42,409 nt of DNA, from NCBI GenBank assembly GCA_030602885.1, contig JAUVYV010000031.1, positions 1-42,409 on the forward strand, in the 5' to 3' direction. Below, one piece after another: positions 15,657 to 38,028 of this stretch (its first letter is position 1; each line of letters starts with the position of its first letter). The notes beneath the pieces were generated by a model, which was given only the letters and a program-made list of their open reading frames with translations, searched no databases and was not told where the DNA came from. The position numbers and the translations under genes are program-made. The stretch comes from Phycisphaerales bacterium. Lineage in GTDB: Bacteria > Planctomycetota > Phycisphaerae > Sedimentisphaerales > Anaerobacaceae.

Positions 15657-15876
15657 AAGAGAGTTTTTTGCAGCAGTGCTGCGATACGGTGTTCTGGCTG
15701 GGTTTGCTGCTATCGGTGTGATTGCCGGTGTAAAAAGTCGGCGTCTTGTTAAAGAGGGCAGGTGCGTCAGGGGTGGGGTGTGCAGCGGGTGTGATGTTTT
15801 TGAAAGATGTGCGCTGCCGGAGGCGCTATCGGCCAAGGCGGTTTTGGACGGGGGTGGCGATGCCTCAGGAAGATAA
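15637..15876 (+). CDS. Small membrane protein with four-cysteine motif
   Basis: 79 aa, family not recognised. One membrane helix (GVLAGFAAIGVIAGV) is preceded by RREFFAAVL, which resembles a twin-arginine signal. The mature part has four Cys spaced C43-x5-C49-x2-C52-x5-C58, suited to an Fe-S cluster or heme-free metal site. It overlaps the NHL gene upstream (20 bp) and the Tat ferredoxin gene downstream (17 bp), so the three are likely translationally coupled. The overlap and tidy Cys spacing support a real gene despite its size. It may be a small electron-transfer or assembly subunit; this is inference only. Confidence 0.65.
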   Translation: MRKVQNRREFFAAVLRYGVLAGFAAIGVIAGVKSRRLVKEGRCVRGGVCSGCDVFERCALPEALSAKAVLDGGGDASGR

Positions 15877-16429
15877 GAGTATTGACAGAAGGCAGTTTCT
15901 TAAAAGCGGGATTCGCGGAGCTGCTGTTGTGGGGATTGTGGGTGCGGCCGGGCTTGGCGTGAGTAAGACGCGAAAGTCTGATACGGTCTGGCAGATAGAC
16001 CCGAACATCTGTGTGTCATGCGGCAACTGCGCGAAATACTGCGTGCTGGAGGTTTCGGCGGTAAAGTGCGTTCACGCCTTTGCGATATGCGGGTACTGCG
16101 ATTTGTGCTCGGGGTACCTTAATCCAAAGCCGAGGGAGCTTGACAGCGGGGCGGAGAACGAGCTGTGTCCGACCGGCGCGGTAAAGCGGAAGTTCGTCGA
16201 GGACCCGTACTACGAATACACAATCGACGAGGAACTTTGTATCGGGTGCGGCAAGTGCGTCAAGGGCTGTAACGCATTCGGCAATGGCTCGCTGCATCTG
16301 CAGGTGCGTCACGACAGGTGCCTGAACTGCAACGAGTGCTCGATAGCCGCCGCGTGCCCGTCGGGCGCTTTCAAGAGAGTTCCGGCAGATTCGCCTTATA
16401 TGATTAAGACGAAGGTAAGCCACGGCTGA
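15860..16429 (+). CDS. Tat-exported polyferredoxin (NapG/MauM-like)
   Basis: 189 aa from the ATG at 15860. A twin-arginine signal (DRRQFLK) and hydrophobic stretch AAVVGIVGAAGLGV mark export of a folded protein. Four Fe-S motifs follow: CVSCGNCAKYC, CGYCDLC with a later CP, CIGCGKCVKGC, and CLNCNEC...CP. This matches the NapG/MauM-type ferredoxins that pass electrons from a membrane NapH-like partner on the periplasmic side; such a partner is encoded directly downstream (TGATG overlap). An earlier in-frame start would lack the Tat signal at the N-terminus and overlaps the preceding gene, so it is rejected. Confidence 0.87.
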   Translation: MPQEDKSIDRRQFLKSGIRGAAVVGIVGAAGLGVSKTRKSDTVWQIDPNICVSCGNCAKYCVLEVSAVKCVHAFAICGYCDLCSGYLNPKPRELDSGAENELCPTGAVKRKFVEDPYYEYTIDEELCIGCGKCVKGCNAFGNGSLHLQVRHDRCLNCNECSIAAACPSGAFKRVPADSPYMIKTKVSHG

Positions 16430-17727
16430 TGATACGCAAGTCTCTGATACTATCGATTCTCCTGCTGGCGGTTCCCTACGCGGCTGCGTTTGGGGCGGAG
16501 CGTTTTCCGCCGCCGGAGTTCGAGAGCGGTTATGAGCTTCCGAGCCCAACCACGCCGTCGCCGAGGGTGGACGTATTCGAGTATATCGATGCGGTGGTGC
16601 TGTTTGCGGCGCTTAGCGTGGGGACATATCTTGTATTGAAGAAGCGCAGCAGGCGGTGGATTTTCGCTCTGATGGTGTTTTCGCTTGTGTATTTCGGGTT
16701 TTACAGAAAGGGTTGTGTTTGTCCGATAGGGGCGATTCAGAATGCGGCGATGACGGTTTTTGATAAAAGCTATGCTATGCCTGTTGTGGTTTTGGCCTTT
16801 TTGATTTTGCCGTTTGTTTTTACATTGTTTTTCGGCAGGGTTTTTTGTGCGGCTGTCTGTCCCTTGGGCGCGATTCAGGATTTGTTTGTGCTCAAGCCGA
16901 TAGCGATACCGCGATGGCTCGATAGCTCTCTGCGATTGTTTGCGTATTTGTATTTAGGGTTGGGGATACTGTTTGCAGCGACGGGCAGTGCGTTTGTGAT
17001 ATGCAGGTATGATCCGTTTGTTGGTTTTTTCCGGGTGACGGGCAGCTTCAATATGATAGTGGCTGGGATATGCCTACTTGTCATCGGGATTTTTATTGGT
17101 CGGCCTTATTGTCGGTTTTTGTGTCCCTACAGCGTTATCCTGAGGCAGTTTTCCCGGATTTCGAGATGGCGTGTTACGATTACGCCGGACGATTGTATCC
17201 AATGTCGGCTGTGCGAAGATGCGTGTCCGTTCGGAGCTATACGAAGCCCGGCGGCAAAGTGGAGGGGTGAGGATTATTCGGTGGGTAAGAAGCGTTTGGC
17301 TCTGCTGCTTGTGCTGCTGGGCGTTCTGGTAGTTTTCGGCGGGTGGGTAGCGTCGCGGGCGAGCGGGTGGATGGCACGAGTGGACTGGCGGGTGCGATTA
17401 GCCGACAGGGTCTATCTGGAAGAGACGGGCAAGGTCAGCGACACGACCGATGCGAGCGCGGCATTTCGGGCGACGGGTGAGGAGATAAAAGAGCTTTATG
17501 CAGAGGCCAGCGATATCGAGGCGAAGATGGCGACGGGGAGCTGGATACTCGGCGGGTTTATGGGATTAGTGGCGGGCTTGAAACTTGTTGGGCATTCGGT
17601 GAGGCGAACGAGAACGGACTACGAGGCGGACAGGGCGAGCTGTTTTGCGTGCGGGCGATGTTTCACATACTGCCCGCGAGAACATGCCCGACTTGATAAG
17701 CTGAAGAACAAGGAAGAAGGTAAATGA
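16429..17727 (+). CDS. NapH/NosR-like membrane polyferredoxin
   Basis: 432 aa. N-terminal signal or helix (SLILSILLLAVPYAAAFG), then about five more helices. CxxxCP motifs typical of the NapH/NosR/CcoG group are present: VCPIGAIQ, CAAVCPLGAIQD and CRFLCPY. A classical cluster CIQCRLCEDACPFGAI follows, and a final CFACGRCFTYCPRE sits close to the C-terminus. Such proteins oxidise quinol or relay electrons across the membrane to periplasmic ferredoxins. Start ATG overlaps the stop of the Tat ferredoxin; the stop overlaps the start of the next gene. A long helical segment with charged residues (about 315-400) separates the last two clusters. Confidence 0.88.
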   Translation: MIRKSLILSILLLAVPYAAAFGAERFPPPEFESGYELPSPTTPSPRVDVFEYIDAVVLFAALSVGTYLVLKKRSRRWIFALMVFSLVYFGFYRKGCVCPIGAIQNAAMTVFDKSYAMPVVVLAFLILPFVFTLFFGRVFCAAVCPLGAIQDLFVLKPIAIPRWLDSSLRLFAYLYLGLGILFAATGSAFVICRYDPFVGFFRVTGSFNMIVAGICLLVIGIFIGRPYCRFLCPYSVILRQFSRISRWRVTITPDDCIQCRLCEDACPFGAIRSPAAKWRGEDYSVGKKRLALLLVLLGVLVVFGGWVASRASGWMARVDWRVRLADRVYLEETGKVSDTTDASAAFRATGEEIKELYAEASDIEAKMATGSWILGGFMGLVAGLKLVGHSVRRTRTDYEADRASCFACGRCFTYCPREHARLDKLKNKEEGK

Positions 17728-19439
17728 AGCAAAGCGACAGTGACAATTTTGAGACCAAAGGGCAGTGGGAGAGAACGGCTGTTTATTCGGCGTGGGTAGC
17801 CGGTGTTTTTTCGGTGGTTGTTGCTGCGTTGCTTTTTGTGAATTACCTGCAGTTGAAGGTTTTGATACCGTTGCGTGAAGAGCGTCTTGAGGCAATGAAG
17901 CTGAAGGTTGCGGATAGTTCTGCCGATGCGCAGCTCGTTGGGCAGATACGACAACTCGATTTGGATATTCGGCGGGACAGAATCAGGGGTCAGGGCTTTT
18001 CGCACAGGGGAAGCTATCTGCTGTTAGGTGGCTTCATAGTGCTCATTGCCGGCGCGAAGCTTGTAAGTTATTTGCGCAAGCAGCTTCCACATCCTGAAGG
18101 ACAGCGTGAGGGACGAGCGGAACAGATGCAGGAGGCGAATGCGGGGCGATGGGCTATTACGGCTGGGCTGATTGTGGTTGGGGCAGGGGCGTTGATTTTT
18201 GCACTGATGCCGACCACCGATTATGGCGGGAGCGAGGTGAGCAGCTATCCATCGGCTGAGGATATTGCGGCGAACTGGGCTCGCTTTCGCGGGCCGGGAG
18301 GGCTGGGTATCAGCGCATATACAAATGTGCCGGAGAAATTCGATGTTGAGGGCGGCGAGGGTATTGTGTGGAAGACGGCGATACCGCTTGCGGGATTTAA
18401 CTCGCCGATAGTGTGGGGTGAGCGGGTGTTTATTTCGGGCGGTGATGAAAAGGCACTGCAGGTTTATTGTTATGATGCTGCGAACGGCAAGCTGCTCTGG
18501 ACGGGAGACGTTCCGAGGCAGGGGGAAGAAAAAGTTAATCCGATGGAGGATACGGGCTTTGCGGCGCCGACTATGGTGACGGACGGCAGGCGAGTGTATG
18601 CCATCTTTGCAACGGGTGACATCGGCTGTTTTGATTTTACCGGCAAGCGGCTTTGGGCGATGAACCTCGGTGTGCCGGACAACGCATACGGACACGCCTC
18701 GTCGTTAGCTATGTATCGTAATTTAGTGCTGGTCCAGCTCGACCAGGGTCAGGCGGAGGACGAAAAGTCCAGACTTATCGCGCTGGAAGGTTTTTCCGGC
18801 GGGACGGTCTGGGAGGTGAAACGACGCGTTTCGGGTTCGTGGACATCTCCGATTGTCATCGAAACAGAGAAGGGGCCTCAGATAATTACCTGCGCCGACC
18901 CGTGCATGATTGCCTACAAGGCGACAAACGGGGCGGAGCTCTGGCGGGCGGATTGTCTTGGGCCTGATGTGGCGCCTTCAGCGGTTTACGGCAACGGGCT
19001 TGTCTATGCGATACATCCCTATACGAAATTAGTTGCGTATCGCGCGGACGGGACGGGTGATGTCACTGAGACACATATTGCATGGACAGCCGACGAGGGT
19101 ATTTCCGATATATGCAGCCCGCTGACGAACGGCAAGGTGGTTTTGGTGCTTACGACCGACGGGCTGCTGACGTGCTACGACGCCAAAGACGGCAAGAAGC
19201 TCTGGGACAAGGAATTAGAGGAAGAGTTTTTCGCGTCGCCTTCCTTTGTCGGCGAGAAGGTTTACCTTCTGAGCGGTAAAGGCGTATTGATAGTCGCCGA
19301 CATATCTGGAGGTTACAAAGATGTGGCGAGGTCCGAACTCGGTGAAAAGTGTTTTGCGTCGCCTGGCTTTGCCGACGGGCGCATCTACATCCGAGGCGAA
19401 AAGAATTTGTATAGGATAGGAAACAGGGCCGGTGAGTGA
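17724..19439 (+). CDS. Membrane-anchored PQQ-type beta-propeller protein
   Basis: 571 aa. Two hydrophobic helices (about 12-38 and 92-112) and a third near 140-160 precede the propeller, which begins WARFRGPGGLGIS. Blades carry the PQQ-repeat pattern (VYCYDAANGKLLWTGD, IAYKATNGAELWRAD, LTCYDAKDGKKLWDKE). No quinoprotein dehydrogenase catalytic residues were recognised, so the fold may serve for protein or ligand binding rather than PQQ chemistry. The multi-helix N-terminus is unusual, since most such proteins have one signal peptide. ATGA coupling with the gene before and an 8-bp overlap with the NuoE-NuoF gene after tie it firmly to the redox operon. Confidence 0.85.
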   Translation: MKQSDSDNFETKGQWERTAVYSAWVAGVFSVVVAALLFVNYLQLKVLIPLREERLEAMKLKVADSSADAQLVGQIRQLDLDIRRDRIRGQGFSHRGSYLLLGGFIVLIAGAKLVSYLRKQLPHPEGQREGRAEQMQEANAGRWAITAGLIVVGAGALIFALMPTTDYGGSEVSSYPSAEDIAANWARFRGPGGLGISAYTNVPEKFDVEGGEGIVWKTAIPLAGFNSPIVWGERVFISGGDEKALQVYCYDAANGKLLWTGDVPRQGEEKVNPMEDTGFAAPTMVTDGRRVYAIFATGDIGCFDFTGKRLWAMNLGVPDNAYGHASSLAMYRNLVLVQLDQGQAEDEKSRLIALEGFSGGTVWEVKRRVSGSWTSPIVIETEKGPQIITCADPCMIAYKATNGAELWRADCLGPDVAPSAVYGNGLVYAIHPYTKLVAYRADGTGDVTETHIAWTADEGISDICSPLTNGKVVLVLTTDGLLTCYDAKDGKKLWDKELEEEFFASPSFVGEKVYLLSGKGVLIVADISGGYKDVARSELGEKCFASPGFADGRIYIRGEKNLYRIGNRAGE

Positions 19440-21783
19440 CGTTGATTTGACATTTGTGGAACAGACCGTCGAGAGAATCGGTACTGAGAAGGATAAGGTT
19501 CTGGAGATTCTTCAGGCGATCGAGGACGAGTACGGGTATCTTCCACAGGAAGCTCTTGAGCGAGTCTGCGAGCTGACTGAGATAACTCCAGCTTCGATTG
19601 CGGGTGTTTCGACGTTTTATGACCGGTTCCGACACAGCCCGGCGGGCCAGCATATAGTTCGTATCTGTATCGGGACGGCCTGCCACGTCAAAGGGGCCGG
19701 GCTGGTCTATGACGCCTTCCAGAGGTATCTCGGTATCCCGGAGGGAGACGATACCGACCCTGAGAAGATGTTTACTATTGGGAAAGTGGCGTGTTTAGGC
19801 TGCTGTATGCTTGCCCCTGCAATACAGATTGATGATATTACCTACGGGCACCTGACCAGCGAGCAGGTTCCGGTAGTGTTGAGGGATTTTCTCGAGCAGG
19901 AAAGAGTCCGCAGTCAGCGAAGGGAGGTACCGGTCCGGGCAAGAACCGAGAAGGAACTTGGCGAAATCCGAATATGTCTCGATTCCAGTTGCGTCGCCAG
20001 CGGCAGCGCCAGAGTATATGAGGCGTTGGAAAATGCTGTCAAAGAAACGGCTGTTCGGGCCGTGGTCAAAAATGTCGGCTGTCCGGGGATGTCCTTCCTG
20101 GCCCCCATTGTGGAAGTGGCTTTGGCCGATGGGACTTCGTTTCGCTATGCAAGGATCCAGCCGGAGGATGCCAGAGCTATTGTACTTAGACATTTCAGGC
20201 CGAAGAAAGTTGGTCCAAAAATCAAGAATGTTATGTCCACCGTGCTGGATAAGATACTTACCGACAAAGCCTGGGAATCCGTCACACGTTATTCGGTAGA
20301 TGTGCGGGATCGGCCGGTAGCTGGTTTTATGGACAAACAAGTACATATTGCTACTGAGCACTGCGGACACATTGATCCGGTTGACCTTGACGAGTATTTA
20401 AGCAACGATGGATTCGAGGCCCTGCAAAAGTGCGTCAGCCGGTTGAACGGCGAAGAAGTTATCGCCGAGATACGGCGCAGCGGGCTTCGTGGCAGGGGAG
20501 GGGCCGGCTTTGAGACGCACCTCAAATGGTCCTGGGTGCGCAGCGAAAAGTCCCAAAAGAAATATGTAGTCTGTAACGGCGACGAGGGCGACCCCGGGGC
20601 TTTTATGGACCGCATGATAATGGAGTCGTACCCGTATCGGATTCTCGAGGGGATTGCGATAGCGGCGTACGTGGTGGGGGCCGATGAGGGCAGGTTTTAC
20701 ATTCGGGCGGAATACCCGCTTGCGTATAAGCGAATAAGCGAGGCGATAGAGAAGTGTTGTGAGAGGGGATTTTTGGGTGAGGACATTCTTGGCAGCGGGT
20801 TCAGCTTTGAATTGAAGCTTGTACCGGGTGCGGGTGCGTTCGTATGTGGAGAGGAGACGGCGCTGTTGGCGAGCATAGAAGGTCGTCGGGGTATGCCTCG
20901 CTTGCGGCCGCCATACCCAGCGGTGAAGGGGCTGTGGGGAAAGCCGACGCTGATTAACAATGTCGAGACATATGCGACGGTGCCGTGGATACTGCGAAAC
21001 GGTGCGGAGGAGTTTGCAAAGCTCGGCACGGAGCATAGTAAGGGGACGAAGGTCTTTGCGCTTGCGGGAAAAATCTCGCACGGCGGGCTTATCGAAGTGC
21101 CGATGGGTATTACTATTCGTGAAATCATAGAAGATATCGGCGGGGGGATAGCGGGCGAAAATTACTTCAAGGCGGTCCAAGTAGGGGGGCCTTCGGGCGG
21201 GTGCGTGCCCGCTGAATTAGGGCACATTACGGTGGACTATGAGTCGCTGACAGAGGTGGGGACAATGATGGGCTCGGGCGGACTGGTCGCGCTGGATGAG
21301 ACGGACTGTATGGTCGATATCGCAAGGTACTTTTTGCAGTTTACTCAGAACCAGTCGTGCGGCAAGTGCACGTTTTGCCGGATAGGGACGCGGCGGATGC
21401 TGGACGTTCTCGAGCAGCTGTGCAACGGTGAAGGCAAGCGTGGTGACATAGAAGAGCTTGAGCATTTAGCGGCGATGATAAAGAAGGGCAGCTTGTGCGG
21501 GCTTGGGACGACGGCGCCTAATCCGGTGCTTTCGACGATTCGTTACTTTCGCAGCGAATACGAGGCACATATCGAGAAGCGATGTCCGGCGGGCAGGTGC
21601 AAGGCGCTTATTACGTATTCTGTGACGGACGACTGCATCGGCTGTACGATTTGTGCACAGCACTGTCCTGTGGGGGCGATTGAGATGAAGCCGTATGAGA
21701 AACATGAGATAGATACGGAGAAATGCGTGCGGTGCGGCACGTGCAAGAGCGTTTGTCCTGCTGAGGCGGTGAAGGTTGAGTGA
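19432..21783 (+). CDS. NuoE-NuoF fusion, NADH-oxidising flavoprotein with extra thioredoxin-like domain
   Basis: 783 aa, GTG start overlapping the previous stop. Residues 1-160: NuoE-like [2Fe-2S] thioredoxin fold with C79, C84, C121, C125. Residues 175-260: second thioredoxin-like domain with C182, C187, C217, but Ser221 where a fourth Cys is expected. Residues 330-640: NuoF core with GLRGRGGAGF (NADH/FMN site) and CNGDEGDPGAF; N3 cluster at C643, C646, C649, C689. Residues 730-783: two ferredoxin motifs (CIGCTICAQHC, CVRCGTCKSVC). This layout matches the HydC/HydB-type diaphorase modules of bifurcating hydrogenases and NAD-linked formate dehydrogenases, but no hydrogenase or formate dehydrogenase gene is in the window. 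It should exchange electrons between NAD(H) and Fe-S partners. Confidence 0.9.
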   Translation: MSDVDLTFVEQTVERIGTEKDKVLEILQAIEDEYGYLPQEALERVCELTEITPASIAGVSTFYDRFRHSPAGQHIVRICIGTACHVKGAGLVYDAFQRYLGIPEGDDTDPEKMFTIGKVACLGCCMLAPAIQIDDITYGHLTSEQVPVVLRDFLEQERVRSQRREVPVRARTEKELGEIRICLDSSCVASGSARVYEALENAVKETAVRAVVKNVGCPGMSFLAPIVEVALADGTSFRYARIQPEDARAIVLRHFRPKKVGPKIKNVMSTVLDKILTDKAWESVTRYSVDVRDRPVAGFMDKQVHIATEHCGHIDPVDLDEYLSNDGFEALQKCVSRLNGEEVIAEIRRSGLRGRGGAGFETHLKWSWVRSEKSQKKYVVCNGDEGDPGAFMDRMIMESYPYRILEGIAIAAYVVGADEGRFYIRAEYPLAYKRISEAIEKCCERGFLGEDILGSGFSFELKLVPGAGAFVCGEETALLASIEGRRGMPRLRPPYPAVKGLWGKPTLINNVETYATVPWILRNGAEEFAKLGTEHSKGTKVFALAGKISHGGLIEVPMGITIREIIEDIGGGIAGENYFKAVQVGGPSGGCVPAELGHITVDYESLTEVGTMMGSGGLVALDETDCMVDIARYFLQFTQNQSCGKCTFCRIGTRRMLDVLEQLCNGEGKRGDIEELEHLAAMIKKGSLCGLGTTAPNPVLSTIRYFRSEYEAHIEKRCPAGRCKALITYSVTDDCIGCTICAQHCPVGAIEMKPYEKHEIDTEKCVRCGTCKSVCPAEAVKVE

Positions 21784-21806: not shown

Positions 21807-22916
21807 ATGAGACTTCAAAACAGGTTTAAGAGAATACTTGATGCGGCGTTCGACGGTTGTGGGCCGAACCAGGATGATTGCATTTACCTTTTGAGTCTGC
21901 CCGGTGACGGCATGGAAGCGGCAATGCTGACTGCGGGGGCGGATACCATTTCGCGAAAAAGATTCGGTAATCAAGCGATCCTTTTAGGCCAGATTGGGAT
22001 CGATATCGCGCCATGTCCCGGTAACTGCAAATTCTGCGTTTTCGGAGAGGGGCATACGACTTTTGAAAAGAGCCGACTGTCCATGGAAGAAATCCTGTCC
22101 CGGGCTCGTGATTTTACACGGCAGGGTGATTTGTATGCACTGTTTCTTATGACTATGCATGAATTTGACCTGGATTATTTTCTTCAGGTCGTGGAAAGGA
22201 TTCGCCGGGAAATTCCTGCTCATACACAGATTGTGGTCAATATCGGTGATTTCGATATCGAACAGGGCGAGCGGTTAGCCGACGCCGGAGTAAATGGCGC
22301 TTATCATGTACGCCGTTTGCGTGAAGGAAAGGATACCTCGCTCGAACCCGAAGAGCGGGAGAAAACCATCGCCACAATACGGCAGGCGGGGCTGGACTTT
22401 TACTATTGCTGCGAGCCGATAGGGCCTGAGCACACACCGGCAGAGCTGGTTGAGCAGATGTTTTTGGGTATCAGGCACGGCTGTTTTCAGCACGCGGCCA
22501 TGCGCCGCGTCTTTGTTTCCAGCGCACCGTTGTCTGTAAACGGGCAAATTACCGAACGTCGGTTGGCGCAGGTCGTTGCGGTAATCACCCTGGCCAGTCT
22601 GGCCTGTCCGGAAACGAAAAACATTGCCGTTCACGAGCCAAATCTTTTAGGTCTGGCTGCGGGAGCCAACGTGGTCTATGCCGAAACCGGCGCCAACCCC
22701 CGTGACATCGAAGATGATACATCGCAAAACCGCGGCCTGGATATCTGCGCCTGCCGAAAGATGCTCTATGAGGCCGGCTTCACGGCGCTGCTCAGGGGAG
22801 ACGGCACAAGCATCCCGCTCGACCTGGAATATGTTCAACGTACCAGCGAACCTCAACAATCGGAGGTATCGGGCGGCAGTCAGATGAACAACACGAAAAC
22901 AGCTATGTCAAAGTGA
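21807..22916 (+). CDS. Radical SAM protein, BioB/ThiH-like
   Basis: 369 aa. The radical SAM triad is C70, C74, C77 in CPGNCKFCVFG, inside a TIM-barrel of BioB/ThiH/HydE general type (LLGQIGIDIAPC before it; YHVRRLREGKDTS and FYYCCEPIGPEHT later). A C-terminal DICACRKMLYEAGF resembles the end of the barrel in biotin-synthase relatives. The exact reaction cannot be told; it lacks the CxxNCxYCG-type signature of HydE/PylB. It lies 23 bp after the NuoE-NuoF gene and 7 bp before the flavoprotein gene, so it may mature a cofactor for that complex. By eye its codons end in C more often than in its neighbours, a possible sign of separate origin. GGGAAC lies upstream of the ATG. Confidence 0.8.
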   Translation: MRLQNRFKRILDAAFDGCGPNQDDCIYLLSLPGDGMEAAMLTAGADTISRKRFGNQAILLGQIGIDIAPCPGNCKFCVFGEGHTTFEKSRLSMEEILSRARDFTRQGDLYALFLMTMHEFDLDYFLQVVERIRREIPAHTQIVVNIGDFDIEQGERLADAGVNGAYHVRRLREGKDTSLEPEEREKTIATIRQAGLDFYYCCEPIGPEHTPAELVEQMFLGIRHGCFQHAAMRRVFVSSAPLSVNGQITERRLAQVVAVITLASLACPETKNIAVHEPNLLGLAAGANVVYAETGANPRDIEDDTSQNRGLDICACRKMLYEAGFTALLRGDGTSIPLDLEYVQRTSEPQQSEVSGGSQMNNTKTAMSK

Positions 22917-22923
22917 AAGCACA

Positions 22924-24501
22924 ATGCCCAGATTGACAATAGACAATCGTGAGGTTGAAGTTGACGACGGCGCGACGGTGCTCGACGCGGCCGGCAAGCT
23001 CGGCATCGAGATACCGACGATGTGCTTTCTTAAAGGTTACGAGCCATCGACGAGCTGTATGGTATGTGTGGTCAAGGTTGAGGGGCGCGACGGACTGGTT
23101 GCTTCGTGCGGACTGCCGGCAGAGGATGGGATGCATGTGGAGACGGCGTCGCCGGAGATTATCGATGCGAGAAGGGCGGCATTGGAGCTGCTGCTGAGCG
23201 ACCATGTGGGCGATTGTATGGGGCCTTGTCAGGTGGTGTGTCCTGCGAAGATGGATATACCGGTGATGATTCGGCAGATTGCGGCAGGGCAGCTTTGCGA
23301 TGCGATTGAGACTGTCAAGCGTGATATTGCGCTGCCAGCGGTTTTAGGGCGGATATGTCCTGCGCCCTGTGAGAATGTGTGCAGGAGGCGACAATACGAT
23401 GATACTGTTTCGATATGCCTGCTGAAAAGATATGTCGCGGATGTGGATTTGCAGTCGGCGCAGCCGTATGTGCCTGTCTGCAAGGCGAAGCGCAACAAGA
23501 GTGTGGCGATTATTGGGGCAGGGCCTGCGGGTCTTGCGGCTGCGTACTACCTGCTGCAGGAGGGCTTCGACTGCACGATATTCGACGAGCGCGATGAGCC
23601 GGGCGGGATGCTGCGGTATTCTGTAGGCGATGATGAATTGCCGAAGGATGTGCTCGATGCGGAGATAGGGTTGATAACGAAATTGGGGGCAGAGTTTAAG
23701 GGGGGGACGCGGATTGATGGCGGGGGGGCGATTGATAAGCTGAGAAGTGACTTTGACGCTGTGTTTATTGCGGTCGGTGAGGTTGAAAAAGAGCAGGCAG
23801 AGCAGATGGGGTTTGAGGCGGGGCCTAAGGGGATAGCGATTGACCCTGGGACTTATGCGACGAATATCGAGGGGGTGTTTGCGGGAGGTGATGCTGTTCG
23901 CAGGCGGAAGATGGCTGTTCGGGCGGTTGCAGACGGCAAGGAGGCAGCGGCCTCGATTACTCAATACTTAGCTGGTGAGCCGGTGACAGGGCCGAGAAGA
24001 CAATTCAATACTCGGATGGGCAAGCTGCTGGAAGGCGAGATGGAAAAGCTGATGGCGGGCGTGAGCAAAGAGCAGCGTGTATTGCCATCAGTGGGGTCAG
24101 ATGGTTTTACCATGGAGCAGGCGAGGGCTGAGTCGAGCCGTTGTATGCATTGCGACTGTCGCAAGGCCGATGACTGCAAGTTGCGAATATATTCTCGGGA
24201 GTATAAGGCCCGGGCGGGACATTATAAGTCAGAGCGGCGGACGTTTGTCCAGGAGTTTGAGCATCCTGAGATAATTTATGAGCCGGGCAAGTGTATCGAC
24301 TGCGGGCTGTGTATTCAGACGGCAGAGCAGGCAAGAGAGCGGCTCGGTTTGACGTTTATCGGGAGGGGGTTTGATGTTCGGGTGGCGGTGCCGTTCAATA
24401 AGAGTATTGCCGACGGGCTGAGAGAAGCGGCGGGTAAATGCGCCGCTGTGTGCCCGACAGGTGCTTTGGCTATCAGGGACGGCGATGGGGGAAATTGCTG
24501 A
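22924..24501 (+). CDS. [2Fe-2S]/GltD-like Fe-S flavoprotein lacking the NAD(P)H domain
   Basis: 525 aa. Residues 1-75: NuoG-type [2Fe-2S] domain (C34, C45, C48, C62). Residues 95-180: GltD-type helical Fe-S domain (CMGPCQVVC, CPAPCENVC). Residues 192-350: FAD fold with GAGPAG at 198-203, PGGMLRYSVGDDELP, and the closing GVFAGGDAVRR. The second Rossmann fold that binds NAD(P)H in GltD is absent: FIAVG (281-285) runs within about 15 residues into the C-terminal FAD segment. The C-terminus adds Cys-rich motifs (CMHCDCRKADDC; CIDCGLC; CAAVCP). It probably receives electrons from the NuoE-NuoF protein rather than from NAD(P)H itself. Last gene of the operon; weak ribosome site. Confidence 0.85.
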   Translation: MPRLTIDNREVEVDDGATVLDAAGKLGIEIPTMCFLKGYEPSTSCMVCVVKVEGRDGLVASCGLPAEDGMHVETASPEIIDARRAALELLLSDHVGDCMGPCQVVCPAKMDIPVMIRQIAAGQLCDAIETVKRDIALPAVLGRICPAPCENVCRRRQYDDTVSICLLKRYVADVDLQSAQPYVPVCKAKRNKSVAIIGAGPAGLAAAYYLLQEGFDCTIFDERDEPGGMLRYSVGDDELPKDVLDAEIGLITKLGAEFKGGTRIDGGGAIDKLRSDFDAVFIAVGEVEKEQAEQMGFEAGPKGIAIDPGTYATNIEGVFAGGDAVRRRKMAVRAVADGKEAAASITQYLAGEPVTGPRRQFNTRMGKLLEGEMEKLMAGVSKEQRVLPSVGSDGFTMEQARAESSRCMHCDCRKADDCKLRIYSREYKARAGHYKSERRTFVQEFEHPEIIYEPGKCIDCGLCIQTAEQARERLGLTFIGRGFDVRVAVPFNKSIADGLREAAGKCAAVCPTGALAIRDGDGGNC

Positions 24502-24689: not shown

Positions 24690-25925
24690 ATGAACAAGGC
24701 GGCAAAAGGCACAAGTCGTAATGGTTTGATGGTTTTAATGGTATTTGTTGTTTTATTGCTTTGCGGGTCGGTTTATGGGGGTGACTGGCCCTGGTGGCGC
24801 GGGCCTAATCACAACGGCATTTCGCAGGAGAAGGGCTGGAATGCGAGCTGGCCCGAAGGAGGGCCGAAAGTGCTGTGGAAGGCGTCGGTGGGTATCGGGT
24901 TTTCGACGTTTGCGGTCAGCGGCGGGGCGGCCTACACGATGGGCAACGCGGACGATAAGGACACCGTATATTGCTTCGATGCAGCGACAGGAAAGGAAAT
25001 CTGGAAGCACACATACAACCAGCGCCTCGATGCGAAGTATTATGAGGGGGGGACATTGGCCTCGCCAATGGTGGCGGGCGGGAAGGTCTATACGCTTAGT
25101 AAGGACGGCAAGGCCTTTTGCCTGGACGCAGAATCAGGCAAGGTGGTATGGCAGAAAAATCTGCTGGGTGACCTGAAAATCGAAAGGACTACGTGGGGAC
25201 TTTCCGGTTCTCCACTTGTGATTGACAATCTTGCTATTTACAACGCGGGCGCTACGGGTGTTGCGCTTAATAAAGATGATGGTTCTGTGGTGTGGCAGGG
25301 GCCGAAGAGTCCGGGCGGCTATGCGACAGCGGTTCCGTACACGATGGACGGGCGTAAGTGTGTGGCCTTGTTCGGCTTTGGGGAAGTGCTCGGACTTGAT
25401 GCGGCAACGGGAGAGGAGCTGTGGAGTCACAAGTGGAAGACGAGATACGACGTTCACGCCGCCGACCCTATTATTGTGGGAAAGCAGGTCTTCATCTGTT
25501 CAGGGTACGGTGAAGGATGTGCACTGCTCGAGCTTGAGAGTAAGGATGGCAAGTACGAGGTCAAACGGCTCTGGCGAAACAAGAATATGCGGAACAAGAT
25601 GAACGCGTCTGTTTTATGGGATGGGTACATTTACGGTGTTGACGAGGGTGGAGAGCTGCGGTGTCTGGACCTTAAGACGGGTGAATTGAAGTGGGCCCAG
25701 AAGGGGTTCGGTCAGGGAAGCTTGACGATAGCCGACGGTAAGCTGATTGTAATGGGCGAGAAAGGTAATCTGGTTGTCGCAGAGGCCTCGCCGGGGGGAT
25801 ACAAGGAGATTTCGTCGGCAGATGTACTTGCCTTCAAATGCTGGACGGTTCCGGTCCTCGCCAACGGCAGGATATACGTGCGAAATACAGCCGGTGACGT
25901 TTCCTGTCTGGATGTTGCGAAGTAA
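24690..25925 (+). CDS. Secreted PQQ-type beta-propeller protein
   Basis: 411 aa. Signal peptide (NGLMVLMVFVVLLLCGSVYGG), then WPWWRGPNHNGIS, the usual start of this propeller type. Blades show the pattern YCFDAATGKEIWKH, FCLDAESGKVVWQKN, LGLDAATGEELWSHKW, RCLDLKTGELKWAQK. No dehydrogenase active-site residues were recognised. It is paralogous to the propeller at 26192: both share WRGPN and the EGGPK-x-LW segment. It probably acts in the periplasm as a binding or scaffold protein. It has its own promoter and is cut off from the next gene by MITE copy 4, whose left target repeat overlaps the last base of its TAA stop. Confidence 0.87.
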   Translation: MNKAAKGTSRNGLMVLMVFVVLLLCGSVYGGDWPWWRGPNHNGISQEKGWNASWPEGGPKVLWKASVGIGFSTFAVSGGAAYTMGNADDKDTVYCFDAATGKEIWKHTYNQRLDAKYYEGGTLASPMVAGGKVYTLSKDGKAFCLDAESGKVVWQKNLLGDLKIERTTWGLSGSPLVIDNLAIYNAGATGVALNKDDGSVVWQGPKSPGGYATAVPYTMDGRKCVALFGFGEVLGLDAATGEELWSHKWKTRYDVHAADPIIVGKQVFICSGYGEGCALLELESKDGKYEVKRLWRNKNMRNKMNASVLWDGYIYGVDEGGELRCLDLKTGELKWAQKGFGQGSLTIADGKLIVMGEKGNLVVAEASPGGYKEISSADVLAFKCWTVPVLANGRIYVRNTAGDVSCLDVAK

Positions 25926-26100: not shown

Positions 26101-26191
26101 ACCTTAACCTGTGCCGGAACACGGAGAGTTGTATCAAGGCAAGAGCAACCTGATTAGCCCGGAAAGAGTTTGGTTTCGCGGAGTTTGTTTT

Positions 26192-27454
26192 ATGTTCAGA
26201 AGAAGAGACAATATGGCGTTGGGCTCCTGTGTGCTCGCCGTTCTCTTGTCTTGTCCGGTTTTTGGCGGTAACGAAGGCTGGTATCAGTGGCGCGGTCCAA
26301 ATCGGGACGGCAAGAGCGTTGAGACGGGACTGCTGAAGGAGTGGGCTGAAGGTGGGCCGAAGATGCTGTGGTTCGTCGAGGGCCTTGGAGAGGGATGGGC
26401 GTCTATGTCGATTGTCAACGGGCTTATCTATACGACGGGCAAGAAAGGCAGAGGCGAGTTCGTTCACGCCATTGATATGGATGGTAACAGGAAGTGGCGG
26501 ACAGAATACGGCCCGGCCTGGACGGGTTCTTATCCCGGCGCAAGATGTACACCAACGATCGACGGTGACAGACTCTATGTCATCAGCGGGCTGGGGACGG
26601 TGGCCTGCCTGGACCGCGAGAGCGGCGAGAAGAAATGGACGGTGAATGCGTTCAAGGACTTCGACAGCGAATACGGACGATGGGGTATTGCCGAATCACC
26701 TCTGATTATCGATGAGAAGGTAATCTTCATCGCCGGGGGTAAGAAGGCGACCATGGTGGCGCTAAAGAAGAAAACCGGCGACGTTGTCTGGGCGAGTGAA
26801 AGCATCGGTGAGAAGAGCTCGTACTGTTCGCCGATCCTTGTTGAAAGAGGCGATGCTCGTTTGATAGTGACAATGCTATCCGATTCGGTCGTCTTTGTAG
26901 ATGCCGAGACTGGAAGAATAGTCTATCGGGACAAATACGCCGACTACCAAAAAAAGCCGAAGGATATTAATCCTGTCACGGCTGTTTACCATGATGGATG
27001 TGTTTATACGACGAGCGGCTATGACTGCGGCGGGGCCATGTATGAGATTTCCGAGGACGGCAAGACGATATCCAGGAAATGGGTTGATACAGTCCTTGAC
27101 TGCCATCATGGCGGCGTTATCTTTCTCGACGGTTATATCTACGGCGCGAGCTGGAAGGGCAACGGTGACGGCAACTGGGTCTGCCTTGACTGGGACACAG
27201 GGAAGGTGATGTACGAACATCACTGGATATGCAAGGGTTCGATAACGTATGCCGACGGGATGCTGTACTGTTACGAGGAAAAGAGGGGCAACGTTGCTCT
27301 TGTGAAGGCAACGCCTGAGGGCTTCAACATCGTCAGTTCATTCGAGGTAACAAAGGGCAAGGACCAGCACTGGGCGCACCCGGTAGTCTTCGGTGGCAGA
27401 TTGTACATACGCCACGGCGACGTATTGATGGCCTATGATGTTAAGGCCGATTGA
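26192..27454 (+). CDS. Secreted PQQ-type beta-propeller protein, first gene of isoprenoid operon
   Basis: 420 aa from the ATG at 26192 (GGAG about 10 nt upstream); an ATG at 26213 is the alternative. A signal peptide (MALGSCVLAVLLSCPVFGG) leads into YQWRGPNRDGKS. Propeller blades are weaker matches than in the neighbour (VHAIDMDGNRKWRTEYG, ACLDRESGEKKWTVN, VALKKKTGDVVWAS, VCLDWDTGKVMYEHHW). Several Cys and His late in the protein (DCHHGGV, HHWICKG) have no assigned role. Only 17 bp separate it from the ferredoxin gene, and it probably leads the operon that includes the terpenoid-type enzymes. How a periplasmic propeller would serve cytoplasmic chemistry is unclear. Confidence 0.83.
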   Translation: MFRRRDNMALGSCVLAVLLSCPVFGGNEGWYQWRGPNRDGKSVETGLLKEWAEGGPKMLWFVEGLGEGWASMSIVNGLIYTTGKKGRGEFVHAIDMDGNRKWRTEYGPAWTGSYPGARCTPTIDGDRLYVISGLGTVACLDRESGEKKWTVNAFKDFDSEYGRWGIAESPLIIDEKVIFIAGGKKATMVALKKKTGDVVWASESIGEKSSYCSPILVERGDARLIVTMLSDSVVFVDAETGRIVYRDKYADYQKKPKDINPVTAVYHDGCVYTTSGYDCGGAMYEISEDGKTISRKWVDTVLDCHHGGVIFLDGYIYGASWKGNGDGNWVCLDWDTGKVMYEHHWICKGSITYADGMLYCYEEKRGNVALVKATPEGFNIVSSFEVTKGKDQHWAHPVVFGGRLYIRHGDVLMAYDVKAD

Positions 27455-27471
27455 AACGGAGGAATTACCAA

Positions 27472-28353
27472 ATGGCAGGCGATACAACCATAATTTACTG
27501 CGACTGTGCCTACTATGACATCATACCGAAAGATGTAAAATCAACGGTACTTGCCGCACTTGCACGCAGCGGCCTTGTATTTCACGCCGTTTCCGATTTA
27601 TGCGGGCTGGCGGCGAAAAGGGATAGCCAGCTCAGGGACTGGGTGGCGGCGGAATCGGTTAAGATAATCGCCTGTTACCCGAGGGCGGTTAAATGGCTGT
27701 TTCGCGCGGCCGGGGCTGATTTGGACCCGCAGCGCACCGAGATATTCAATATGCGGACAATGCCAGCGGAAGAGATTATCTCTTCTGTTGTCCCGGCACA
27801 AAGCAAAATCGAAGCTGGCGGGGACATCGAGCCGGGCGGAAAGGGCGACTGGGTGCCGTGGTTTCCGGTGATTGACTACGAGAGGTGCAAAAACTGCAAA
27901 CAGTGTATGAACTTCTGTCTTTTTGGCGTTTATGATGTTGATGAGGAGGGACAGGTTCGGGTTGTCAAGCCGGACGGCTGTAAGACGAATTGCCCCGCGT
28001 GCGCGAGGGTCTGTCCACAGGCAGCCATTATTTTTCCAAAATACGGGAGCAGTCCCATCAACGGCGACGAGGTCACTGATGAGACGCTGGAGAAAGAGAT
28101 AACCGGAGTAAAGGTGAACTCGCTGCTGGACGGTGACATTCGCGAGGCAATCCGCAGTCGCAGCAGAAAAGGCAGACGATTTGCCGCCTCGACGGAAAAC
28201 TCGCCGGGCGGGGGAGCGTCGGCTGTGAACGAGCTGCAGCACAAATTGAGCATTCCGAACGAGGTTTTGCGGTCTTTGTCTGCGAAGGACATTGCCCTGA
28301 TACGAGAGAGAACAATCGCTAAGAAAGGCCACGGCGAAGATGACAGCGAGTGA
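27472..28353 (+). CDS. Two-cluster ferredoxin with N-terminal accessory domain
   Basis: 293 aa, cytoplasmic. The ATG at 27472 follows GGAGG by 9 nt. The N-terminal ~120 residues (TIIYCDCAYYDIIPKDV, VSDLCGLAAKRD, IIACYPRAVKWLF) look like a small alpha/beta domain with conserved Cys, loosely like the MvhD/HdrA-associated Fe-S subunit, but this is not firm. Two [4Fe-4S] sites follow: C139/C142/C145/C149 (CKNCKQCMNFC) and C170/C174/C177/C181 (CKTNCPACARVC). The C-terminus is charged and probably disordered. It overlaps the next (radical SAM) gene by 14 bp, so it likely supplies low-potential electrons to that enzyme. Confidence 0.82.
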   Translation: MAGDTTIIYCDCAYYDIIPKDVKSTVLAALARSGLVFHAVSDLCGLAAKRDSQLRDWVAAESVKIIACYPRAVKWLFRAAGADLDPQRTEIFNMRTMPAEEIISSVVPAQSKIEAGGDIEPGGKGDWVPWFPVIDYERCKNCKQCMNFCLFGVYDVDEEGQVRVVKPDGCKTNCPACARVCPQAAIIFPKYGSSPINGDEVTDETLEKEITGVKVNSLLDGDIREAIRSRSRKGRRFAASTENSPGGGASAVNELQHKLSIPNEVLRSLSAKDIALIRERTIAKKGHGEDDSE

Positions 28354-29902
28354 GCAGCCGAAGCCGAAAGTTCTGCTTGTCAGCGACAGAACTCTGAGTG
28401 CAGGTTACAGGGTTTTGTTCGAAGGCATTTTCGCAACGATGCAGACGAGACAGGTGCCGGAACCTGCAATGCGTTACTTTTTGTCCCCACGTATCAAAAC
28501 AGATAAGCTCGGTCGCGCAAAGGCGGCGGCGCTGGGGCTGCGTCGTGTTGAATCGGCACTGCTGCGGTTTACCGACCTTAATCCCGATGATGTGGTTTGT
28601 ACGACACCGGAATCGCTGCCGAAGATGCTTGGGCCGTGGGTTAAGGTCGTGGCTTTTAGCTCGAGCGACCCATTGGGTATGGGGATGAGCAATACAACGA
28701 CGAAGAACTTCTGGAAAGGCGAGCTTTATACAAGCTACTGGACTCGGCAGACGCTGCAGCAGATCACCGAGGCGAAAAGAAAATACGGCTTTAAGGTTGT
28801 TGCCGGAGGCGCCGGTGCGTGGCAGTGGAAGCGAAGAGCTGTGCAGAAAGAGATGCTCGGCGTCGATGTGGTATTCGACGGCTATTTCGAAAAGGCGGGG
28901 CCAAAGCTCTTTGATGACCTGATTAACGGTAAAGAGACCGCCGAGTACATGGATGAAGAAAGCACGTGCATAGAACAAGTGCAACCGCTTAAAGCACCGT
29001 CGATGCTGGGTATCATTGAGCTTTCGAGAGGGTGCGGGCGGGGATGCCGGTTCTGCACAATGGCTCGAAAGAGTATGAGCCATATACCGGTCGAGACAAT
29101 TCTGGCGGATATGAAGACGAATGTGGCCACGGGAATGACCAACGTAGTCAGCAGCAGTGAGGACTTCTTCAGGTACGGAGCGACAGGGGTAAAACCGAAT
29201 TTTGAGAGCTTATGCGGTCTGCTCGAGCAGATGCGAAAGATACGGCAACTTTCCTTTATGCAGATGGACCACGCGAATATCAATACGGTGCTGCAGTTGA
29301 CGGACGCGGAGCTTTGTGAAATCAGGCGACTGTTGACATGGCGATGTAAGACCGATTATCTTTGGGTGAATATGGGTGTCGAGAGCGCGAACGGTCGGCT
29401 TGTAGCAGCCAACTGTCCTGGGAAGATTGCACCATTTCGGCCCGAAGACTGGGAGGAGATGGTCAAGGAGACTGCTGAGCGAATGAATCGAACAGGTTTC
29501 TTCCCGGTGTTTAGCATAATACTCGGTCTGCCCGGCGAAACACGGGATGATGTCGAGCGAACAGGCAAACTGGTCGAGTATCTCGGGCGGAAACGGGCGG
29601 TGATTTTTCCGGTATTTTATGAGCCGCTGTCGAGCGAGGATGTAAGGTTTGGAATTGAGGATATGCGTTCGGAACATCTTGCGTTGTATCGGGCCTGTTA
29701 CGAGATAAACTTTCGGCTGATGCCGCGACTGTTCTGGGACAATCAGCGGGCAGGGGGGGTAGGCCTGGTAAAGCGTTCTCTGTTGCAGGCGCTCGGGCGC
29801 TGTGAGGTTATGTCCTGGCGACGGACGTTCAGACGGCTGGGTAAGCAGCTGGCGCGGCGGCAGGCCGTTGAGGAGGATGTGGAAGTATGCGGGACGATTT
29901 AG
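28340..29902 (+). CDS. Radical SAM protein with B12-binding-like N-terminal domain
   Basis: 520 aa. Residues 1-200 form an alpha/beta domain like the cobalamin-binding domain of B12-type radical SAM enzymes (VVAFSSSDP, VVAGGAGAWQW, VVFDGYFEKAGPKLFDDL), but without the DxHxxG motif that ligates cobalt, so B12 may bind base-off or not at all. The radical SAM triad is C232, C236, C239 in SRGCGRGCRFC; barrel motifs follow (VNMGVESANGR, FSIILGLPGETRDDV). Related enzymes methylate or ring-contract unactivated carbons, including hopanoid methylases HpnP and HpnR. Position among isoprenoid cyclisation genes suggests a terpenoid substrate, an inference. It overlaps its neighbours on both sides (14 and 16 bp). 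Confidence 0.82.
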   Translation: MTASEQPKPKVLLVSDRTLSAGYRVLFEGIFATMQTRQVPEPAMRYFLSPRIKTDKLGRAKAAALGLRRVESALLRFTDLNPDDVVCTTPESLPKMLGPWVKVVAFSSSDPLGMGMSNTTTKNFWKGELYTSYWTRQTLQQITEAKRKYGFKVVAGGAGAWQWKRRAVQKEMLGVDVVFDGYFEKAGPKLFDDLINGKETAEYMDEESTCIEQVQPLKAPSMLGIIELSRGCGRGCRFCTMARKSMSHIPVETILADMKTNVATGMTNVVSSSEDFFRYGATGVKPNFESLCGLLEQMRKIRQLSFMQMDHANINTVLQLTDAELCEIRRLLTWRCKTDYLWVNMGVESANGRLVAANCPGKIAPFRPEDWEEMVKETAERMNRTGFFPVFSIILGLPGETRDDVERTGKLVEYLGRKRAVIFPVFYEPLSSEDVRFGIEDMRSEHLALYRACYEINFRLMPRLFWDNQRAGGVGLVKRSLLQALGRCEVMSWRRTFRRLGKQLARRQAVEEDVEVCGTI

Positions 29903-31578
29903 CAACGGCGGCGAGGCCGGCAAGGCCGCCACAAAATAATATACCGCAGTCAAAGGAGCAACGGGAACGACTGCTCGATATTATCCGCAATTACGTGCGG
30001 AGCGAAAGGCCGACCGGACCACTGTCCATTGAGGAGTTGAAAGAGCATTGCAGCAATGTACTGAAGCTGGCCAAGCTCGCACCGCAATATCATGACTACA
30101 CGGCAGTGCTTGTCAATAACGAGGTCTGGCGAGACATTGTCGCAGCAATTCCATACGAGAAACGGCTGTTGCTTTTGCCGAAGTGCCTTCGTGATCCGGA
30201 CAATTGTCAGGGTGAGCTTGATGAGTTCGGCCTGATATGCAACCACTGCGGTAGTTGTGTAATAGATGAGCTCCAGAACCAGGCAGAGCGGTTGGGTTAT
30301 GCGGTCCTGGTTGCGGAGGGCTCGCCGATAGTGACTTCTCTGATTGAAAGCGGCAAGGTCGAGGCCGTGATTGGGGTGAGCTGTCTGTCGGTGCTGGAAC
30401 AGGTCTTCCCTTATATGTCGGCCGGCGCCATTCCCGGCATTGCGATACCTCTGCTTCAGGACGGCTGTGCCAATACAAGCGTTGATATCGATTGGGTCTG
30501 GAACGCAATTTGGGAAAACAGCGCCGATGAAACCCGGCGGTTAAATCTCGAAGAGCTTCGCAGAAAGGTTGATAGCTGGTTTACGCCGGAGTCGCTGGAG
30601 CCACTATTGGGACCGGCCGACGACCAGACGAAAAAGCTTGCGATAGACTGGCTGGCCAAGGCGGGTAAGCGGTGGCGGCCTTTTCTTGCGGTATGCGCGT
30701 ACAGGGCAATCAAGGGCGACAACGAAGAGCAGCCTGGCGGTGAGCTTATGCAGGTTGCCATTGCAATAGAATGTTTTCACAAGGCCTCGTTGATTCACGA
30801 TGATATCGAAGATGGGGACAAGCAGCGTTATGACGAGGAGACGATGCATGTCAAATACGGTGTTCCGATTGCTCTTAACGTTGGGGATTTCCTTCTTGGC
30901 GAAGGATACCGTCTGCTTGCAGAGGCAAATACGTCGGGCGACGTAAGGGCTGCGATGCTGCGGGTGGCGGCGGAGGGACATAGAGATTTGTGCCTTGGTC
31001 AGGGGAAGGAATTGTCCTGGCTTCGGAGCGGCGGGCCTTTGAGCAGCGATGAGGTGATTGAGATTTATGAGAAGAAGACCTCTCCTGCGTTTGCGGTTGC
31101 CTTGAATTTAGGGGCGATACTTGCCGGCGGCGCGGAGGAATTGGCCGGCGTTTTCAAGCAATACAGTGACGCGCTCGGCGCAGCTTATCAAATCAAGGAT
31201 GACATCGACGATTTCGATGTTCATAACTTCAAGGTTGAGCGGGGCATGATAAGGCCGTCGCTTCTGCTTGCGGCAGCTTATGAGCGAGCCGAAGATGCCG
31301 GCAAGGCGGCGATTGATTTGCTGTGGCGCCGGGACAGTACCTGCAGGGGCACCGTCGATATTGGCGCTATCCTCGAAAAGCTGCGAATCCGCACAATGGC
31401 TTCGGCCGCTATGGAGTCATACAAATCCAAAGCTATTGGCTCTCTGGTTGCCTTGAGCAATCCGAGTCTTAAGGGGCTGCTTCGCAGAGTCGTGGCCAAA
31501 ATCTTCAACGATATTGACGTGATGAGCTGCTGCAATGACTATCAGGCAGGACATGTTAGGGGCGGTGAGTCGAGCTAA
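29887..31578 (+). CDS. DUF116-polyprenyl synthase fusion protein
   Basis: 563 aa. Residues 25-210: DUF116 with five Cys (C100, C107, and CNHCGSC with C118, C121, C124) likely to hold an Fe-S or zinc site. Residues 245-545: trans-polyprenyl diphosphate synthase with GKRWRP (260-265), first Asp-rich motif HDDIED (D305, D306, D309), the later MHVKYG, and second motif KDDIDD (D438, D439, D442). Both Mg-binding motifs are intact, so chain elongation from IPP is expected. Small residues (Ala300, Ser301) before the first motif suggest a product longer than farnesyl. The usual RRG after the first motif is replaced by RYDEE. The fusion and a 44-bp overlap with the downstream gene point to dedicated pathway use. 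Confidence 0.88.
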   Translation: MRDDLATAARPARPPQNNIPQSKEQRERLLDIIRNYVRSERPTGPLSIEELKEHCSNVLKLAKLAPQYHDYTAVLVNNEVWRDIVAAIPYEKRLLLLPKCLRDPDNCQGELDEFGLICNHCGSCVIDELQNQAERLGYAVLVAEGSPIVTSLIESGKVEAVIGVSCLSVLEQVFPYMSAGAIPGIAIPLLQDGCANTSVDIDWVWNAIWENSADETRRLNLEELRRKVDSWFTPESLEPLLGPADDQTKKLAIDWLAKAGKRWRPFLAVCAYRAIKGDNEEQPGGELMQVAIAIECFHKASLIHDDIEDGDKQRYDEETMHVKYGVPIALNVGDFLLGEGYRLLAEANTSGDVRAAMLRVAAEGHRDLCLGQGKELSWLRSGGPLSSDEVIEIYEKKTSPAFAVALNLGAILAGGAEELAGVFKQYSDALGAAYQIKDDIDDFDVHNFKVERGMIRPSLLLAAAYERAEDAGKAAIDLLWRRDSTCRGTVDIGAILEKLRIRTMASAAMESYKSKAIGSLVALSNPSLKGLLRRVVAKIFNDIDVMSCCNDYQAGHVRGGESS

Positions 31579-32422
31579 GGGTGTTCTTGGCGGCTCGGCC
31601 GAGCTGGTCGTCAGGTTTCTTCAATCGCAAATCAATCAAGACGGTGGTTTCAAAGGAAGAGACGGTCGCAGCGATTTGTATTACACCATGTTTGGCGCCG
31701 AAGCGATGAAGGCATTGGGCGCCGATGTCCCCCGAGAAAGAATTGCAGAGTACCTGGCCGGATTCTGCGATGCCGAGTCGCTGGACCTTGTTCACTTAGG
31801 CTGCCTTGTCCGCTGCATGGTGGATTTGGGCCGGTCGATAAGCGATTCTTTTCGTAATGCCGTCCTGCAGCGGGTTGCGGCACATCGCAGCGCCGACGGC
31901 GGCTTCAGCACTGCCGTGCGTGCAGCGTGCGGAAGCGCTTACGGCTGCTTTTTTGCGCTGGGTTTGTATCAGGATATGAAAACGGATGTACCCGCGCCCG
32001 ATGCTTTGGTTAAGTGCATCGAGTCACTTGAAACGCGCGATGGAGGCTATGCGAACGAACATTCGCTGCCGGTGGGTATGACTGCAGCTACGGCGGCGGC
32101 TTTATCGACGCTGCATTACTTAGACCGGCGGCGTGAGGAAGATGCGGTGGACTGGCTTATTAAGCAGCTTCGGCCGGATGGGGGCTGGCCGGCGGCTGCG
32201 AACGCGCCGCTGTCGGATTTGCTTTCGACGGCGACGGCACTTCACACGCTGGGGCTGCTGGAGATGTCGCTGATCAATATCAGAGAACAGTGCCTTGATT
32301 TCGTCGAGAGTCTGTGGGACGGAAAGGGCGGCTTTTTCGGCTGTGCTGCGGACAGGGTCGCTGATTGTGAATACACTTACTATGCCCTGCTGGCCCTGGG
32401 ACATTTGAGAGAGGAGAAATGA
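31535..32422 (+). CDS. Prenyltransferase/squalene-oxidase-repeat protein
   Basis: 295 aa, almost entirely alpha-barrel repeats of the PFTB/squalene type: QDGGFKG, ADGGFSTA, RDGGYANE, PDGGWPAA, GKGGFFG, with a late DCEYTYYALLALG. The size fits half an alpha/alpha terpene-cyclase fold. The Asp-Cys near that end recalls the zinc site of protein prenyltransferase beta subunits, but the full Asp/Cys/His set cannot be assigned. No DxDD motif. It may pair with the larger cyclase-like protein encoded next (4-bp overlap) or bind a prenyl chain. Start at 31535 overlaps the synthase gene; an ATG at 31553 is also possible. Confidence 0.78.
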   Translation: MTIRQDMLGAVSRAKGVLGGSAELVVRFLQSQINQDGGFKGRDGRSDLYYTMFGAEAMKALGADVPRERIAEYLAGFCDAESLDLVHLGCLVRCMVDLGRSISDSFRNAVLQRVAAHRSADGGFSTAVRAACGSAYGCFFALGLYQDMKTDVPAPDALVKCIESLETRDGGYANEHSLPVGMTAATAAALSTLHYLDRRREEDAVDWLIKQLRPDGGWPAAANAPLSDLLSTATALHTLGLLEMSLINIREQCLDFVESLWDGKGGFFGCAADRVADCEYTYYALLALGHLREEK

Positions 32423-35508: not shown

Positions 35509-35510
35509 GC

Positions 35511-36437: not shown

Positions 36438-36661
36438 TTTTGTCCTTTAAAGATATTTGGCTCGGGCAAGAAGAAGTTGTACCGAAGAAAGAGGGCCGAT
36501 TCAAGCATTTTCACGGGGGGTTGTGTGGCGCGTACAAGCGAGCAGAGGCAGCTTGGCTTTGCAGGCGGTATGTAGTATCATTGTCGTATGTAAATTGCCC
36601 ATAGCTGTATTGCACAGACCCGTTGGAATCGTCGAAGGTAAGCTCATTAGGGCGTTAGAAG

Positions 36662-37141: not shown

Positions 37142-37173
37142 TTCTTGCCGGACTGAAGTCAGAAAGCAGAAAT

Positions 37174-38016: not shown

Positions 38017-38028
38017 TCTTTGCCTGAT

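Follow-up and report, generated by a model that had tools for sequence, protein, structure and literature searches.

A StnC-like Fe-S flavoprotein subunit without NADPH domain and its putative membrane-attached bifurcating complex in Planctomycetota

The window analysed here, the whole stretch of 42,409 nucleotides from a Phycisphaerales genome, encodes at positions 22,924-24,501 an iron-sulfur flavoprotein that resembles GltD and StnC and lacks the NADPH domain. Judged from sequence, and with a probability of roughly 0.6, this protein is a BfuA/StnC-type wiring subunit of a membrane-attached Bfu/Stn variant, in which NADP(H) as third partner has been exchanged for a chain of NapH and periplasmic Fe-S proteins. 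A more far-reaching proposal is put forward tentatively, at slightly less than even odds: the protein would belong to a new membrane-attached bifurcating or confurcating complex, widespread in Planctomycetota, which couples NADH and ferredoxin to a periplasmic carrier via NapH and a Tat ferredoxin and which descends from an NADPH transhydrogenase that shed its NADPH and FAD domains step by step.

The open reading frame has an ATG start and codes for 525 residues, with the following layout:

22,924-24,501, forward strand: GltD/StnC-like Fe-S flavoprotein subunit without NADPH domain, BfuA-like (ORF, Pfam, homologue alignment)
22,924-23,214, forward strand: N-terminal NuoG/HydA-like [2Fe-2S] domain, residues 1-97, with Cys34, 45, 48 and 62 invariant
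23,215-23,463, forward strand: Fer4_20 domain, residues 98-180, with Cys98, 102, 106, 145, 149 and 153; Lys168 corresponds to StnC Lys170
23,491-23,973, forward strand: single FAD-type Rossmann domain, residues 190-350, with GxGxxG kept and Glu238 at the Arg239-equivalent position
23,779-23,871, forward strand: deletion scar, residues 286-316; these 31 residues take the place of a stretch of 178-184 residues that contains the NADPH Rossmann domain in full-length relatives
24,121-24,468, forward strand: C-terminal Fe-S domain, residues 400-515, with Cys407, 410, 412, 418 and Cys457, 460, 463, 510 conserved

Pfam matches in the product comprised Fer2_4 (residues 4-76), Fer4_20 (100-177), FAD-type Rossmann models (about 190-231) and the C-terminal part of Pyr_redox_2 (274-338). 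The only GxGxxG motif is GAGPAG at residue 198. Between FIAVG, with its last residue at position 285, and GVFAGGD, with its first at 317, lie 31 residues; in eight full-length relatives this spacing is 178-184, which corresponds to a deletion of about 147-153 residues. A first-pass annotation of the window had noted a single GxGxxG, a missing NAD(P)H-binding Rossmann domain and a deletion of about 150 residues, and the ORF, Pfam and alignment to solved homologues bear it out on all of these. A divergent second Rossmann fold was rejected by alignment, as only 31 residues are present; the appearance of a decaying domain is seen in loci L124 and L127. In phmmer searches against solved chains, 9bov_A, 8oh5_C and 9n5u_A scored far above NfnB and GltD. 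The earlier description as a GltD/NfnB-like subunit without pyridine-nucleotide domain is supported; among solved proteins, StnC and subunit A of NfnABC stand closest, not GltD. The alignment with these homologues covers residues 2-298 or so, leaves out approximately 100-160 residues of their own chain, which form the NAD(P)H domain, and then resumes. An AlphaFold model, built on an alignment of three rows, had a pLDDT of 48.7 and was poor except in the FAD domain and a stretch of the N-terminus; over most of residues 190-350 its confidence was fair to good, with a single Rossmann core. Foldseek on a low-confidence model again returned StnC and NfnABC-A proteins at the top. The NCBIfam model PRK12814 (NADPH-dependent glutamate synthase small subunit) gave 427 bits, under its curated cut-off of 916.

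The predicted NuoF partner is encoded upstream:

19,432-21,783, forward strand: NuoE-NuoF fusion with C-terminal 2[4Fe-4S] domain, a core of the BfuC+BfuB / StnA+StnB type (Pfam, motifs, solved homologues)

Its closest solved relatives are NfnABC-B and StnB, and it keeps the FMN and NADH sites, the CGKCxxC motif (B1 Cys), the B2-cluster His, the C-terminal 2[4Fe-4S] domain and the NuoE [2Fe-2S] motif (BfuC). By these motifs it is recognizable as the bifurcating core that matches the wiring subunit. The N-terminal [2Fe-2S] site (B5) of the NuoF part reads CLDSSC...GCPGMS in the sub-clade of the window, not GSC...GCxGxC, which could mean weaker bifurcation there. The expectation that a NuoF partner brings its own NADH/FMN site is thus supported by motifs and homology; the two genes are, as a small correction to the first-pass annotation, not adjacent in the window, since a BioB-like radical SAM gene (21,807-22,916) lies between them, which was found in no relative locus searched. 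As a reason for dispensing with the NADPH domain, NADH handling by such a partner is incomplete, because full-length StnC has one too; the change lies in the third partner.

Further genes surround this pair:

14,583-15,656, forward strand: NHL-repeat protein with N-terminal membrane anchor, the conserved first gene of the module
15,860-16,429, forward strand: periplasmic-type ferredoxin with Tat motif RRQFL (the listed ORF begins at 15,746; 15,860 is the likely start)
16,429-17,727, forward strand: NapH-like membrane ferredoxin, in L124, L127 and L133 present as a fusion with NuoE
17,724-19,439, forward strand: membrane protein with three predicted TM segments and a PQQ-type beta-propeller
24,690-25,925, forward strand: PQQ-type beta-propeller protein, often downstream in relatives
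26,111-27,454, forward strand: PQQ-type beta-propeller protein, often downstream in relatives

The gene order NHL protein, Tat ferredoxin, NapH-like protein, TM propeller, NuoEF and wiring subunit recurs in most relatives with enough flanking sequence. Among 161 genomes of the order, 83 have both NapH and the wiring-subunit gene, 10 the latter only, 6 NapH only and 62 neither; owing to the kinship of these genomes, a p value for this co-occurrence does not count as independent evidence. Some genes lie apart (NapH in G048; the propeller gene in G048, G604, G211 and G248), and in L110, L112 and L122 the relative of the wiring-subunit gene does not adjoin NuoEF, which counts against our explanation. 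The Tat motif of the ferredoxin fits the strict pattern in 23 of 38 loci, and nearly all others have a looser RR. The window NapH has seven predicted hydrophobic segments, including an N-terminal signal, and two CxxC-type sites; it scored 43 bits against TIGR02163 (cut-off 213), a weak similarity, and sequence searches found no solved relative. NapH and NuoE form one ORF in the three loci named above, and in L097, L098, L125 and L136 a TM hairpin precedes NuoE; these fusions are the strongest sign that NapH and the bifurcating core are together at the membrane. The TM-propeller gene is found in most operons with the deleted form and is absent from full-length ones. A strict link between its presence and loss of the NADPH domain, suspected from L097 and L098, was dropped, as L125, L133 and L136 are deleted without that gene.

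Relatives of the wiring subunit, counted at E <= 1e-60, occur in 93 of the 161 genomes of the order, nearly all of them as complete matches in short ORFs. At class level, 53 of 247 genomes gave a match, and a phylum sample of 392 genomes gave 41, mainly of the short form and some full-length. The gap is therefore common across the order and in other classes and families of Planctomycetota, as a check of the homologues for this deletion confirmed. Plain Stn-like loci without NapH (L099-L103, L132) retain the NADPH domain, and so do the NapH-type loci L097 and L098, with 178-179 residues. In the NapH-type loci L124 and L127, 159-162 residues remain, with the GGGNTAMD and YRR motifs decayed; a remnant of 46-52 residues is left in L109, L110, L123 and L126, the 31-residue spacing is that of most NapH-type loci, and only 7-10 residues are found in L041, L116, L122, L133 and L139. 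In L128-L131, with subunits of 337-340 residues, the entire FAD domain is absent, the Fe-S parts and the operon being kept. Arranged in this way, the sequences read as a graded erosion inside one conserved operon, from intact over degenerate, remnant and deleted NADPH domain to a deleted FAD domain. In a NuoF tree, into which the domain-loss trait does not enter and in which many inner branches are weakly supported, the NapH loci fall into one supported clade, and the degenerate L124 and L127 group with the deleted L133 and L140 in one supported group. From this grouping, the NADPH domain was most likely lost more than once. The series reads as a clear natural record of a modular redox enzyme swapping its third substrate: core and wire are retained, the domain for the old substrate decays after a new partner has been connected, and loss may then extend to the flavin domain.

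For the state of the FAD domain, column conservation was compared between 47 deleted forms and the eight full-length relatives. The Arg next to FAD (R239 in StnC, R201 in NfnB) is present in all eight full-length sequences and in 8 of the 47 deleted ones, the window having Glu238. The Asp of GGD, present in the window, is kept in 21 of 47, whereas GxGxxG and the second GG glycine are invariant among the deleted forms. In the Fe-S wiring, Lys stands in 38 of 47 at the StnC Lys170 column (Lys168 in the window), and the core Fe-S Cys columns are nearly invariant. Pairwise identity of the FAD domain lies about 5 points under that of the Fe-S parts in deleted forms and about 5-11 points above it in most pairs of full-length forms (eight sequences, few pairs), and we take this to reflect relaxed constraint in the deleted forms.

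These data bear on the suggestion in the first-pass annotation that the FAD of this subunit is itself the bifurcation point, which draws on homology to NfnB, whose FAD bifurcates. In the StnABC complex, bifurcation takes place at the FMN of StnB, to which the FAD of StnC hands on its electrons without itself bifurcating (PMC10482914), and FMN bifurcation has been proposed for the entire Bfu family (PMC9304861). Given this precedent, the replaced Arg239, the variable GGD Asp and the lower identity of the FAD domain, a bifurcating FAD is unlikely; as the domain is moreover dispensable in L128-L131 and the NuoEF neighbour retains an FMN-type core, we regard this suggestion as highly improbable, and a structural or decaying role of the FAD domain is more likely. 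A working redox centre of another kind deserves more weight, although it too seems unlikely: a partner could dock on the open face left by the NADPH domain and use the retained flavin as a relay. The invariant glycines mean that FAD may still bind and work, which counts against reading the domain as a remnant, and the domain is kept in the great majority of relatives and modelled with fair to good confidence over most of its length. The erratic GGD Asp and Arg columns, the apparent relaxation of constraint and the loci that keep the operon without any FAD domain speak against a working flavin.

Coupling might also have been lost along with the NADPH domain, leaving a non-bifurcating oxidoreductase for NADH (or ferredoxin) that supplies the membrane chain. 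The altered N-terminal [2Fe-2S] motif of NuoF in the window sub-clade would fit this, but all other BfuBC hallmark motifs are kept in the window and its relatives, including the B2 His, which is absent from non-bifurcating homologues (PMC9304861); we consider such an enzyme improbable. Least credible of all is an artefact, be it an assembly deletion or an NADPH domain supplied in trans by another gene, for which no supporting evidence was found: the gap is shared by independent genomes across the phylum, on which ground an assembly deletion was rejected, intermediates with a decaying domain exist, and no separate NADPH-domain gene was seen in the conserved operon of the window and the relative loci.

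In the membrane-attached Bfu/Stn variant that we favour, bifurcation or confurcation would take place at the FMN of NuoF. Electrons would leave FMN along the Fe-S clusters of the wiring subunit, reach the Fe-S centres on the cytoplasmic side of NapH and cross the membrane to the ferredoxin in the periplasm, or take this path in reverse; the FAD domain would be a structural remnant en route to loss, at most a one-electron relay. A quinone partner, with NapH as quinol dehydrogenase, is less likely, because two menaquinone markers were not found in a marker search of the own genome (no match to the futalosine-pathway marker, and a MenD match far below cut-off).

Sedimentisphaerales, an order of anaerobic Phycisphaerae, live strictly by fermentation and lack a respiratory chain according to PMC11266412. 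If the proposal is true, such bacteria would have, in a bifurcating complex attached to the membrane and joined to periplasmic Fe-S proteins, a means of trans-membrane electron transfer, and their cytoplasmic redox balance would be linked to the periplasm in a testable manner. Elsewhere in the own genome, L142 (C124) holds Rnf/Nqr-type genes, and L003 and L005 (C55) hold a second system with a NuoF-GltD fusion, which matches GltD-family models across the nucleotide domain, and a HoxU-like protein of 241 residues. Downstream in the window, a second conserved block (27,451-34,299) contains genes for a ferredoxin, a B12-type radical SAM protein, a DUF116-polyprenyl synthase and prenyltransferase-like and squalene-hopene-cyclase-like proteins; it recurs in L041, L043 and L044, and in L133 the DUF116-synthase and cyclase homologues adjoin the NapH operon. 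It is followed by haem biosynthesis genes (34,540-39,348; ALAD, porphobilinogen deaminase, glutamyl-tRNA reductase), among which a cytochrome c assembly gene (37,174-38,016) hints at c-type cytochromes.

Literature searches returned nothing relevant on such an operon and, on the domain loss, the Stn papers only. The [2Fe-2S]-Fer4_20-FAD-C-terminal Fe-S architecture is that of the StnABC (Nfn-Bfu) transhydrogenase of Sporomusa ovata (PDB 8oh5; PMC10482914) and of NfnABC of Caldicellulosiruptor (9bov) and Thermococcus sibiricus (9n5u), with which the Lys ligand column and the NuoE/NuoF core are likewise shared. Unlike these, the window protein has neither the NADPH domain nor the FdhF-like C-terminal domain, Arg239 is replaced, and the operon has membrane and periplasmic Fe-S partners. 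The complex would work like a Bfu/Stn enzyme, yet we would not count it as a member of the Stn transhydrogenases, as their defining NADPH domain is absent. With the Bfu family, e.g. NiFe-Bfu HydABCSL, it shares the BfuBC core motifs and a BfuA-type wiring subunit fed by extra subunits (Type 2/3 logic); it differs from the types described in the consulted part of PMC9304861, where none with NapH, Tat ferredoxin and propellers was found, in that these are its extra subunits. NfnB and GltD share the Fer4_20 and FAD Rossmann half, but the NADPH half is missing here, no NfnA or GltB partner was found in the operon, and the second Rossmann fold of NfnB and Arg201 at its bifurcating FAD have no counterpart. 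As in NapGH and NosR-type membrane ferredoxins, a NapH-like polyferredoxin stands beside a Tat ferredoxin; the similarity is weak, and in the window NapH is tied to an NADH/ferredoxin core.
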